64,000 nt of DNA from Parvibaculum indicum (GTDB lineage Bacteria; Pseudomonadota; Alphaproteobacteria; Parvibaculales; Parvibaculaceae): NCBI RefSeq assembly GCF_011762095.1, contig NZ_JAASQO010000007.1, forward strand, positions 62,001 through 126,000, read 5' to 3'. Position numbers and translations under genes: made by a program. The notes beneath the pieces are model-generated. The model made no database searches, was not told the DNA's origin, and was given only the letters and a program-made list of their open reading frames with translations. Below are positions 49,323 through 52,856 of this stretch, piece after piece. Position 1 is the first letter of the stretch. Every line of letters starts with the position of its first letter.

Positions 49323-49348
49323 GGGCGGAACCTATCACACCTCAACGG

Positions 49349-49508
49349 TGTCATCCCGGCCCTCCTTGCATGCGAAGGTGGCCGGGACCCATTGGCGGTG
49401 CGCCTAATAGGAGTGGCGAGTGGGCCCCGGCAACAAGTGCCGGGACGACATCGATGTTTGGGTTTTCCGCATACGCCAAAAGCACGCTGTCATACCGGGC
49501 TTGTCCCC
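49349..49508. repeat. Family C repeat, rearranged copy (C6)
   Basis: GTGTCATCCCGGCCC...GGCCGGGACCCATTGGCG, then GTGGGCCCCGGCAACAAGTG, CCGGGACGACA, a GTTTGGGTTTTCC segment and a final GTCATACCGGGC. The order is partly changed relative to C3 and C4. Confidence 0.7.
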
Positions 49509-50048
49509 TCAGGTCACCGCAATGGGCTCGGCGGGAACGCCGGCGCCTATGTCGATCCATCCGGCGGACCGGATTTCCTTGATCCGGAATTCGCCCGCCG
49601 GAACCATCCGCCCCACGCGCACCTGGGCGAGATGCGCGACGATGATGGTCGACTGCGCCGCGCGATTGGTCATCGGCAGGTCCAGCACGTCGAAATCGAC
49701 GATATATCCTTTCGCCGACTGCGCGGTAATCACGAAATAGCCGCCGCAGGGCGTGGTGAGAATGGCGTCGCTCGCGCTCTCGAAGGCGCCGAAGGCGGAA
49801 TCCTCCAACCGGTCCAGATAGCTCTGTTTGGTGGGGTCGAAGCCGATATCCTCGGTAATGCCGGTCCCGACCATGCGGAACTCGACCCTGTCGGCGGAGA
49901 AATATTCGACCATGAGGATGCGCGGCATGATCTTGTGGATCGCCAGCGGATCGAAGTCGGCGCGGTCGGGCATGAAGCCGGATTTGGGCAGGCTGTCCCA
50001 GTACTGAAAGAACCGCTTCGTCTCCGGATGAGCAAATCTGTCGGGCAT
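49509..50048 (-). CDS. PAS_5-domain protein
   Basis: 179 residues from MPDRFAHPETKRFFQYW. Reads as the alphaproteobacterial PAS_5 family: KSGFMPDRADFDPLAIHKIMPRI, EFRMVGTGITEDIG and a C-terminal beta stretch. No output domain; role unknown. Open frame upstream of this ATG is repeat-derived. The last residues overlap the edge of repeat C6. Confidence 0.85.
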   Translation of the reverse strand: MPDRFAHPETKRFFQYWDSLPKSGFMPDRADFDPLAIHKIMPRILMVEYFSADRVEFRMVGTGITEDIGFDPTKQSYLDRLEDSAFGAFESASDAILTTPCGGYFVITAQSAKGYIVDFDVLDLPMTNRAAQSTIIVAHLAQVRVGRMVPAGEFRIKEIRSAGWIDIGAGVPAEPIAVT

Positions 50049-50052
50049 GGCC

Positions 50053-50115
50053 TCCCCCTGTCGTCGCCCCCTATTCTCGCCCCCTGTCGTCGCTCTGTCG
50101 TCGCCCCTGTTGCCG
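50053..50115. repeat. Short tandem repeat before the PAS_5 gene
   Basis: Three to four imperfect copies of CCCCTGTCGTCGC-like units directly upstream of the gene start. Could change in number by slippage. The rest of 50116-50243 shows no gene. Confidence 0.7.
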
Positions 50116-50243
50116 CGCGCCCTCCTTGTCGCGCTCCCACGGGGCCCCTCGGCTCCAACCATCAAACCGCGCAAAGGTTAAATGTTTGGCAGCGACGATC
50201 CTTCGATCGCCGCGCGGGTCCGGAACGCCGACGGGAGAGCCCC

Positions 50244-50735
50244 TCACAGATATTTCCGCAGCTCCGCCGTATAGGGCCGGTAGCCAGCGCGCCCGTAAAT
50301 ATCCATGGCGCGGGCGTTCGCGTTCAGCGCGCCGATCATGATCTGCGTCAGCCCCAGCCGCCGCGCTTCCGCCTCGCAGGCCGCGATCAGCGCCTGCCCG
50401 ACGCCCAACCCCCGCGCCGCCTCGCTCACGAAAAGCTCGGTGATATAGCCATAGCGCCGCTCTTCTTCCCTGACGAAGAGAGGCCCTTCCTCGACCACCA
50501 GCACGCCCCAGCCGATGACGTGACCGCCCTCTTGGCCCTCCCGCTCCGCGACGAAGGCCCGGCCCTGCTTGCGCGCCAGCTCCTCCGACAGCTCGGCGAA
50601 ATATTCCTCCGCCACGGCCGGATCGAGCCGGCGATTGGGCTCGAATTCATGCTCGTAACGCTGCGAGCCCATGATGAAGGAAAGCGCGGCTTGCCTGTCG
50701 GCGGTGAGGTCGATGTCGCGGAGATGGAAGGTCAT
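50244..50735 (-). CDS. GNAT family N-acetyltransferase
   Basis: 163 residues. Acetyl-CoA motif in ITELFVSEAARGLGVGQALI and C-terminal MDIYGRAGYRPYTAELRKYL. Substrate unknown. Begins 31 bases after the EVE/GIY-YIG gene and could be read from its promoter, but codon usage is that of the host while the upstream gene is AT-rich. Confidence 0.9.
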   Translation of the reverse strand: MTFHLRDIDLTADRQAALSFIMGSQRYEHEFEPNRRLDPAVAEEYFAELSEELARKQGRAFVAEREGQEGGHVIGWGVLVVEEGPLFVREEERRYGYITELFVSEAARGLGVGQALIAACEAEARRLGLTQIMIGALNANARAMDIYGRAGYRPYTAELRKYL

Positions 50736-50766
50736 GAGGCAGAGGGTACGCTAACAAAAATGATAG

Positions 50767-51744
50767 TCATGACTTAGATTTGTTAATTCCACCCACGATG
50801 AAGAAATTTGCCGCGCCTGGAACACCAGAGAACTCCGCTTTAAGAGCGTCGCTCTCACCTAGAAAAAACTCCTTACCTAAGGGCTCGAAGCGCCGAGCAA
50901 ATTTTTCTTTCAGTATATCTTCTGCGTCTTTGGCCGCTTGGCCGCTCGCATATGCAGCCGAATTGAGCGATATCTTCCATTCATACTTTGATGCGGGCGG
51001 AAAGCCTGCGTTCATCTCAGCGCACCGTCGCATTGGGTCATTTGAGAAGCCAACTTTCACAATCACCCCTTTGCCTACTTCATATGAAGGGCGCCCGAGG
51101 AAAGTCGAGACGTCTCCCTTTAGCTCCATCATATAAAGCCAGTGTTGTCCGTCCTCGTATTCGCTATTTCTGCTACCGAATGAGGGCTCAACCCCTCTAG
51201 AGGGAAAGAAAACTTCCTTGAGAGGGACTTCTTCCTCATCAGTGATTGCAACCTCTGGTTCGCCGTATACGTTCACTGCCTTCACAGGCAAGCGAAGAAC
51301 CCTCTGCACCTCTTCTTCTGTCAGTTTCGCGCCTTGGCTCGCAATCACTCTTGCCCGATTGGTGGTATAGGTAGTTGACGCTAGATTCTGAATTTCGATT
51401 TGTCGCGTGACCCGCCATGCACGGCGTACCGGAAGGCCATAGGTCCACCTATGCCCCCAGCCACTCTCTCTTTTTCTACGCATTCCCTCGGTCGATGACT
51501 TTTCATGGTCCATAATTGGAATGGGGTCGATCTCCAGTACACCTAAAACCTGTCCTTGCTGGGAAATCTCGGTCTCTGCGGATGTCGCACCATAGATCAA
51601 GACAAGATCCCCAGATTGTGCTTCATCGAGCACACGCTTCCGGTCTCCCTCTCGGGTCCACCCAACATAACCGTCTTCCCAAGGTCCAAACCCCCAGAAA
51701 GCTCGTATCCATACTTTGGGTACTTCTTCGATAATTTTCTTCAT
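50767..51744 (-). CDS. EVE/PUA-like plus GIY-YIG-like protein, putative defence nuclease
   Basis: 325 residues. The N-terminal half (about 8-165) resembles EVE/PUA-like domains that read modified bases: WIRAFWGFGPWEDGYVGW, then SGDLVLIYGATSAETE and GQVLGVLEIDPIP. The C-terminal half (about 200-305) resembles GIY-YIG proteins of the T5orf172/MUG113 kind: HWLYMMELKG, VIVKVGFSNDPMRRCAEMN and GKEFFLG with E292. R240 and E292 are candidate catalytic residues. Base composition is clearly lower in GC than all neighbours, a sign of recent transfer. Likely a modification-dependent nuclease, by inference from domains. Confidence 0.7.
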   Translation of the reverse strand: MKKIIEEVPKVWIRAFWGFGPWEDGYVGWTREGDRKRVLDEAQSGDLVLIYGATSAETEISQQGQVLGVLEIDPIPIMDHEKSSTEGMRRKRESGWGHRWTYGLPVRRAWRVTRQIEIQNLASTTYTTNRARVIASQGAKLTEEEVQRVLRLPVKAVNVYGEPEVAITDEEEVPLKEVFFPSRGVEPSFGSRNSEYEDGQHWLYMMELKGDVSTFLGRPSYEVGKGVIVKVGFSNDPMRRCAEMNAGFPPASKYEWKISLNSAAYASGQAAKDAEDILKEKFARRFEPLGKEFFLGESDALKAEFSGVPGAANFFIVGGINKSKS

Positions 51745-51881
51745 TTCAGGCTCGCAAATGACGCATTAAAATTATTTTCCATATAAGCGCATTTTCCTCA
51801 GTATAGAAGGGTAGTAGATATCCGATCGCCTATAACTCCTCCCCACTTCCAGCCTCCCCCGCGCCCTGATAAAGAGAGCGC

Positions 51882-52856
51882 ATGACGACACCCCCGGCGG
51901 ACACGCCCCCGAAACCGCAAGCCCCCCCGACCGACGACGCGCAAGCGGCGCCTGAGGGCGAGCGCATTGCCAAGGTGATTGCGCGCGCGGGCGTCTGTTC
52001 GCGGCGCGAGGCGGAAAAGCTCATCGCCGAGGGCCGCGTTACCGTGGACGGGCGCGTGCTGGAAAGCCCCGCCCTCAACGTCACCGGGCGCGAGACCATC
52101 GTGGTGGACGGCCATCCGCTGCCCGCGCAGGAGCCCACCCGGCTCTGGCGCTACTACAAGGAGGCGGGGCTCGTCACCACGGCGCGCGATCCGGAAGGCC
52201 GGCCCACCGTCTTTTCCCGCCTGCCCAAGGACATGCCCCGCGTGGTCTCGGTCGGGCGGCTCGACGTGAACACGGAAGGCCTGCTGCTCCTCACCAATGA
52301 CGGCGAGCTGGCCCGCCTGCTGGAACTGCCCTCCACCGGCTGGACGCGCCGCTATCGCGCCCGCGCCCATGGCCGCGTGACCCAGGCCGATCTCGACAAG
52401 CTCAAAAACGGCGTCACCGTCGAGGGCGTCCGCTACGGCCCCGTTGAGGCGGTGCTCGACAAGGCTCAAGGGTCCAATGTCTGGATCACGCTGTCGCTCA
52501 AGGAGGGGAAAAACCGCGAGGTCAAAAAGGTGCTGGGCTCGCTCGGCCTGGCGGTGAACCGGCTCATCCGGCTGTCCTACGGCCCCTTCCAGTGCGGCGA
52601 CCTGCAACCCGGCGAGGTGCGCGTGGTGCCCAACCGCGTGCTGATGGACCAGCTCGGCAATAATGCGGCGAAATTCGGCGGAAAACTGCCCTCCGGCGGC
52701 GCGGCAAAAGAAACGAATACAAATTCACGACAAGGAAAGCCCGCCGGAAACGGCCGGAAACCGTCGCAAAAGGGCGGCGGCAAGCCCGGTGGCAAAACCG
52801 GTGGGGCTCGCAAGACAAAGGGTGGCGCCCATGCGCATCGTCGGCGGCGCGTTTAG
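51882..52856 (+). CDS. rluB: RluB-type 23S rRNA pseudouridine synthase
   Basis: 324 residues. S4 domain (ERIAKVIARAGVCSRREAEK) then the RsuA/RluB catalytic domain with D128-region motif VGRLDVNTEGLLLLTNDG and KEGKNREVKKVLGSLGL. Makes pseudouridine in 23S rRNA (2605 region in E. coli) by homology. The tail is a low-complexity Gly/Lys/Arg-rich extension (KKGGGKPGGKTGGARKTKG-like) typical of alphaproteobacterial members. Its 3-prime end overlaps rsmD by 26 bases. Confidence 0.93.
   Translation: MTTPPADTPPKPQAPPTDDAQAAPEGERIAKVIARAGVCSRREAEKLIAEGRVTVDGRVLESPALNVTGRETIVVDGHPLPAQEPTRLWRYYKEAGLVTTARDPEGRPTVFSRLPKDMPRVVSVGRLDVNTEGLLLLTNDGELARLLELPSTGWTRRYRARAHGRVTQADLDKLKNGVTVEGVRYGPVEAVLDKAQGSNVWITLSLKEGKNREVKKVLGSLGLAVNRLIRLSYGPFQCGDLQPGEVRVVPNRVLMDQLGNNAAKFGGKLPSGGAAKETNTNSRQGKPAGNGRKPSQKGGGKPGGKTGGARKTKGGAHAHRRRRV

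Follow-up and report, generated by a model that had tools for sequence, protein, structure and literature searches.

In their census of EVE domains, Bell, Wolf and Koonin (2020) listed fusions of this domain to a GIY-YIG nuclease domain, predicted a type IV role for them and recorded that PIN-GNAT-EVE proteins and standalone EVE proteins occur with type I restriction-modification (R-M) systems; the part of the census available to us gives no sequences for comparison and states no R-M operon linkage for the EVE-GIY-YIG fusion (PMC7641849). Partial texts of several further papers describe enzymes that resemble such a fusion in one respect or another. VcaM4I has an N-terminal EVE reader and a C-terminal nuclease, which is of the HNH type, and has been shown to target 5mC/5hmC (PMC7897488). 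CMoRE (PD-T4-3) is a type IV enzyme, encoded by a single gene, that pairs a GIY-YIG nuclease with a separate domain for sensing modification; the nuclease is N-terminal with the motif GIYxY-YIG and the sensor has another fold (PMC12923530). In Ahi29725I and Apa233I, which are m6A-dependent, a winged-helix reader of methylated adenine is fused to a GIY-YIG nuclease (PMC11037411). Odn (ICP1 Gp88) cuts DNA with a C-terminal T5orf172 domain that requires the glutamate E180, its RepA-like DNA-binding half is aimed at satellite replication origins, and the same source notes that alternative core residues occur, Odn itself departing from the usual motif at a place other than that described below (PMC8263062). 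Phage T5orf172 proteins usually have a zinc-finger partner domain (PMC10448857), and further precedents are given in reviews and related papers (PMC12707154, PMC11347163, PMC8281217). The available portions of two more papers, one naming GIY-YIG in its methods only (PMC8432527) and one treating EVE domains of other systems (PMC12839542), contain nothing on an EVE-GIY-YIG family. Across the open-licence literature available in this partial form, a scope that lies mostly outside subscription journals, we found no characterised EVE-GIY-YIG enzyme.

The DNA analysed here (the window) is a stretch of 64,000 nucleotides from Parvibaculum indicum. It contains, at positions 50767..51744 on the minus strand, a frame with an ATG start that encodes 325 amino acids and most likely belongs to the class already predicted, that of EVE-GIY-YIG modification-dependent endonucleases. 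To that class we add the linkage of the family to R-M genes, the solitary inserted form found at this locus, and a result that speaks against plain 5mC as the target. That the frame is a real gene, beyond a chance open frame, is confirmed by its homologues and by purifying selection among its relatives, where dN/dS is 0.084-0.185 in seven of ten pairs, the remaining three being saturated at synonymous sites.

The N-terminal half of the protein had been proposed to be EVE/PUA-like, and the structure prediction suggested as a check points the same way. Residues 9-166 (51247..51720, minus strand) are predicted to form an EVE-like reader domain with the PUA/YTH fold, as judged by Foldseek, Pfam, profile comparison and residue invariance. 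An AlphaFold2 model built from 32 sequences has a mean pLDDT of 87.1 and a pTM of 0.60, a low value, so that the model does not fix the arrangement of the two halves. The top match of the model in the PDB (Foldseek) is 2p5d (E 4.3e-4, probability 1.00, TM 0.59 on the target); one of the 108 structure matches has E <= 0.001, and EVE-, THYN1- and YTH-type matches lead, the best 13 of the 108 being small proteins of these types and the N-terminal domain of McrB. Several of the top matches carry hypothetical-protein titles, and we take these to be EVE proteins. From its length, and from Pfam and the profiles, we place the matched region in the N-terminal half. Against Pfam EVE the window protein itself scores under the curated cut-off (E 0.022), while 10 of 32 family members scanned singly match at E <= 0.001, as do 20 of 32 N-terminal halves at E <= 0.01. 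A profile of the reader half compared with 18 host-type EVE proteins gave 65.7% (E 5.8e-5, 42 columns), and six of its residues are invariant in 32/32 aligned homologues (G28, Y51, G68, W100, R108 and A109; W100 is encoded at 51445-51447, minus strand). The modification-reading domain expected of a type IV enzyme would thus be supplied by the predicted EVE/YTH-type fold.

The C-terminal half had been likened to T5orf172/MUG113 GIY-YIG proteins, and sequence profiles bear this out. A predicted nuclease domain of the T5orf172 type spans residues 196-309 (50818..51159, minus strand), as indicated by Pfam over the family, PDB entry 1ywl and profile comparison. The window protein lies under the curated cut-offs of Pfam T5orf172 (E 0.0024, 18.8 of 20 bits) and MUG113 (E 0.0065), so that its membership of the T5orf172 branch holds at the level of the family, in which 10 of 32 members match T5orf172 (E <= 0.001; best 1.5e-6) and 8 of 32 match MUG113 (E <= 0.001). 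A PHROGs endonuclease family matches the window protein (E 0.0015). A sequence search with the nuclease half found 1ywl, a UPF0213 protein (E 4.3e-4) that is, we presume, a GIY-YIG protein. Profile comparison of the nuclease half with 29 GIY-YIG domains from relatives gave 95.3% (E 2.1e-8), against 0.1% and 1.7% for the crossed comparisons of the halves, and the E-values of all these profile comparisons hold for a single comparison each. The window protein had no match in NCBIfam, in PADLOC or in a single-sequence search of the PDB, and no GIY-YIG chain is found among the best 50 of the 108 structure matches of the model.

Nine residues of the C-terminal half are invariant in 32/32 homologues (Y204, K230, G232, R240, P249, W256, E275, K279 and E292), and the roles that we give them are assigned by analogy. 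Y204 (51133..51135, minus strand, as for the residues that follow) is the predicted GIY tyrosine; R240 (51025..51027) aligns with the GIY-YIG arginine and is the predicted catalytic arginine; and E275 (50920..50922), which aligns with the glutamate of the GIY-YIG REK helix, is the predicted metal-binding residue. The DPMRR motif, which ends in R240, and the GKEFF motif, which contains E292 (50869..50871), lie where the original prediction had placed them, and R240 and E292, on whose conservation it had staked its case, are both kept in all 32 homologues. In the sequence alignment it is E275, more than E292, that corresponds to the glutamate usual in GIY-YIG proteins. The place of the YIG tyrosine, as aligned by profile, is taken by K230 (51055..51057) in 32/32 homologues. 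Profiles and the invariant Y204, R240 and E275 thus point to a nuclease domain with catalytic residues of the kind expected of a type IV enzyme, with K230 at the YIG tyrosine.

Taken together, the structure model of one half and the profiles of the other suggest that the window protein unites EVE and GIY-YIG domains, as do the fusions listed by Bell et al. It differs from CMoRE in that the reader is N-terminal and EVE-like, the nuclease is C-terminal and K230 replaces the YIG tyrosine; an N-terminal GIY-YIG domain with the GIYxY-YIG motif is absent. It differs from VcaM4I in that its C-terminal half appears GIY-YIG-like by sequence, not HNH.

The family is sparsely distributed. Homologues were found in 3/98 near-relative genomes, 2/40 genomes of the order, 8/385 genomes of the class (two with the N-terminal half only) and 6/398 genomes of the phylum (three partial), all counts including the window's own genome; plasmid records gave three matches, one covering the N-terminal half only. 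A single scan of a species-level genome collection, which used two patterns and whose reach is therefore limited to close relatives, returned 31 family loci, which look alphaproteobacterial. Identity is ~37-49% for close homologues and falls to ~25% for distant ones. Searches of phage records and viral contigs found no relative, on which ground a phage origin of the gene was rejected. Copies are broken at 3/31 loci (L040, L049 and L050), that at L049 by transposase-like frames. A related N-terminal half (25-26% identity) is joined to what by eye is an HNH-like half in two genomes (L056 6009-10772 and L009 1474-2412), the one at L056 lying divergently oriented beside hsdM and hsdS; a Pfam scan found no match in these HNH-like halves. 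Swapped nucleases and frequent breakage would fit restriction genes.

A survey of gene neighbourhoods, which had been proposed as a check on a role in defence, gave that role strong support. R-M genes or their remnants lie <=10 kb from the family gene at 23 of the 31 collection loci. Complete hsdR, hsdM and hsdS are found at 14 loci (L021, L023, L024, L025, L026, L028, L029, L035, L038, L039, L040, L041, L042 and L050), incomplete type I genes at three (L022, L027 and L049), an MmeI-like enzyme at three (L030, L032 and L037), an Eco57I-like methylase with a ResIII helicase at two (L031 and L046), and a ResIII helicase with no other R-M gene at one (L048). At the other eight loci (L020, L033, L034, L036, L043, L044, L045 and L047) the re-scan described below found no R-M gene, two of these being on short or edge DNA (the contig of L033 measures 3.1 kb, and at L034 the gene is at a contig edge). 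The start codon of the family gene overlaps an upstream R-M gene by 4 bp at L021, L025 and L030, and mrr lies directly downstream at 6/31 loci (L028, L029, L030, L031, L032 and L046). Elsewhere, hsdM- and hsdS-like genes lie near the family gene at L010, and at L052 a methylase-like gene precedes it by 22 bp. At L053 there is a weak match to HsdR (25%), and an N6-methylase match lies ~12.5 kb from the gene. A DUF6998 gene is found just upstream of the family gene at 8/31 loci (L022, L024, L026, L027, L033, L036, L040 and L049). At five of the type I loci (L035, L038, L039, L041 and L042) an AAA-ATPase gene (AAA_15/AAA_21) and a partner gene lie directly downstream and may add another pair of defence genes to the operon.

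The re-scan compared 25 neighbour proteins with 38 stretches, the window included, by tblastn; its queries were taken from the same loci (19 Pfam-scanned, the rest named by clustering), so that R-M genes unlike them escape it, and L044 is read as L051, the same place, in all neighbourhood counts. With these queries no R-M gene was found at L011, L054 or L055, nor anywhere in the 64-kb window. The original description of a lone gene therefore stands for the window copy and fails for the family. As a yardstick, 96 genomes of the class hold, among the matches listed, 55 places with an N6-methylase match (E <= 1.6e-31), some of them pieces of one gene; at ~0.6 such places per genome a random 20-kb stretch would rarely contain one. 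Because the loci are related to one another, we attach no probability to the linkage.

The window copy lies, as first described, between a GNAT gene (50244-50735, minus strand; Pfam Acetyltransf_1) and a gene (51882-52856, plus strand) that we presume from its sequence to be rluB-like. The fusion gene is also lower in GC than all of its surroundings, as had been noticed: its GC content is 50.4% compared with 64.3% in the remainder of the window, tiles of 978 nt average 64.1% (sd 2.7), the gene is the lowest-GC stretch, and each of the seven tiles under 55% overlaps it. Low GC as a trait of the whole family was considered and rejected, since the GC content of the gene falls short of the locus mean in 18/30 loci. 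Strongly low-GC copies (>=8.6 points under the locus mean) are those of the window, L010, L011, L043, L045 and L047, and five of these six have no R-M gene in the re-scan. A consensus search found no sigma-70-like promoter at the fusion gene.

Pairwise alignment of both junctions with the corresponding stretch (L088) of the nearest relative, G015, shows that the two genomes align to about position 50748 and then anew from 51842. The intervening insert of ~1.1 kb (50749..51841) has no match in G015, and because the alignment resumes at 51842 the ~1.1 kb exchange carried the fusion gene and no other. Repeats around the insert are short or have their partners inside the gene, and none clearly marks the ends of an element. 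The interval between tadA and rluB is a variable spot in the genus (window 49323-51881; L088 2129-6428; L083 826-1495). Among 23 genus stretches, which are the 28 with an rluB match less the window, G015, two contig-edge cases and one weak paralogue, the tadA-like and rluB matches are 90-204 bp apart in 21 and more widely spaced in two (L063, 823 bp; L083, from genome G007, 669 bp). In the window and in G015 a PAS gene and a GNAT gene lie between tadA and rluB; past the GNAT gene the window has the fusion gene, and G015 has genes for a 2OG-Fe dioxygenase and a PLP-dependent enzyme (L088 2262-4905), possibly a small biosynthetic pair. In the family tree a branch with 100/100 support divides the window copy from that of G007, a genome of the same genus, so that the two look like separate arrivals; the precise branching point of the window copy has weak support (80/89).

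The best-known target of EVE domains is 5mC, and an enzyme that cut any 5mC would be expected in genomes that avoid cytosine-5 methyltransferases. Matches to such methyltransferases are present in 26/34 carrier genomes (one, G043, resting on a weak match, E 1.4e-4) compared with 79/192 in a class sample that itself holds a few carriers (G000, G043 and others). Genome size and R-M richness confound this comparison, which speaks against avoidance while showing no target. The 34 carriers exclude L049 and L050 (broken), the plasmid hosts and the two EVE-HNH genomes, and include L040 (broken). Since carriers are not short of these enzymes, indiscriminate cutting of 5mC is unlikely, and a plain 5mC reader was rejected. 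The window's own genome has cytosine-5 methyltransferase matches at three places, and many of the R-M-linked copies adjoin adenine methylases. With both kinds of methylase in the hosts, the likeliest target is a modification foreign to the host, or one recognised only within a narrow context. Rather than 5mC or m6A wherever they occur, the protein probably reads a rarer mark, such as one of the 5hmC type or one of the bulkier bases of phages, or a mark that is set in a narrow range of sequences.

On balance we think that the product of the fusion gene is probably a DNA endonuclease of the modification-dependent, type IV-like kind and serves as a backup to restriction systems, with both activity and target predicted. 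When phage or plasmid DNA enters the cell, the EVE-like half would flip out a modified base and read it, and the tethered GIY-YIG half would make a cut close by; a conserved glutamate (E275, perhaps E292) would hold the metal ion, and Y204 and R240 would share in catalysis. Copies linked to R-M genes would cover DNA made immune to the neighbouring system by modified bases, and the window copy would have moved alone into the variable spot beside rluB. We favour this reading because of the EVE-like fold, the GIY-YIG profile, the invariant residues and the R-M linkage, and the precedents of VcaM4I, CMoRE, the wH-GIY-YIG enzymes and Odn, together with the HNH-like swaps of a related reader half, point the same way. 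Against it are K230 in place of the YIG tyrosine, the lack of a GIY-YIG chain among the best 50 of the 108 structure matches, the low pTM of the model, the cytosine-5 methyltransferases of the carriers as regards the best-known EVE target, and the lack of a matching PADLOC model. A bolder version, which we offer only tentatively, is that type I and type IIG operons carry a second layer, an EVE-GIY-YIG effector (sometimes with Mrr) directed at hypermodified DNA that escapes restriction, reading a mark that is neither 5mC nor m6A and is perhaps new to EVE domains, with the gene moving between unrelated R-M systems and also alone.

The R-M linkage would also fit an auxiliary subunit of type I/IIG systems, whose EVE half reads the methylation of the system or docks onto it and whose nuclease depends on the partner; solitary copies would then be stranded or paired with an unlinked system. 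The R-M genes, often upstream and in the same orientation, lend this idea some weight, but the partners are unrelated (two kinds of type I system, MmeI-like enzymes, and an Eco57I-like enzyme accompanied by a ResIII helicase), some six changes on the tree are required to account for the type I label, eight of the 31 loci (two on short or truncated stretches) and the window have no R-M gene, and solitary copies retain the invariant residues, which together make a subunit role doubtful. The protein might instead be an RNA-targeting, abortive-infection nuclease whose EVE half reads modified RNA (tRNA, for example) and which cuts upon a breach of restriction. YTH readers of m6A in RNA are among the fold matches, and PIN-GNAT-EVE toxins were tied to type I R-M in the available part of the census of Bell et al. 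(PMC7641849); the GIY-YIG precedents as described in the texts available (CMoRE, wH-GIY-YIG and Odn) nevertheless cut DNA and no antitoxin-like partner is common to the loci, and we regard an RNA target as unlikely.

K230 in place of the YIG tyrosine would fit an inactive nuclease half, in a protein that does no more than bind modified nucleic acid. Since Y204, R240, E275 and E292 are all invariant, and since Odn is, in the text available, an active T5orf172 nuclease with a motif departure elsewhere (PMC8263062), loss of activity seems improbable. Spread as a selfish T5orf172-type homing endonuclease is suggested by the window copy being the only gene in its insert and by the many phage T5orf172 proteins taken, in the portion of that study available, to be homing endonucleases (PMC10448857). 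Such proteins are found in phages and have zinc-finger partners, whereas searches of phage records and viral contigs turned up no member of this family, its partner domain is EVE-like and it is linked with R-M genes, and homing is accordingly very improbable.

The modification-dependent endonuclease that we favour would, if active, add to the reader-nuclease pairs for detecting modified DNA and would be a case of modification-dependent restriction sharing its loci with classical R-M systems. The family offers compact, conserved candidates whose neighbourhood shows their companions, with the target now constrained to something other than plain 5mC in any context.

Other domain arrangements were seen at a few loci. 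Two distant members (L011 14632-15960 and L013 1456-2874) share a similar additional N-terminal domain of ~100 residues that had no match in a Pfam scan and that presumably resembles a winged helix of the alkylguanine-transferase type. On a Thioclava plasmid (L012 1969-3570) a gene for a stand-alone EVE-like protein precedes one that by eye is PLD-nuclease-like, and a helicase-like gene comes next. At L016 (163-1899) a C-terminal stretch of a DUF3427 protein matches the GIY-YIG half of the family, perhaps as another reader-nuclease pairing.
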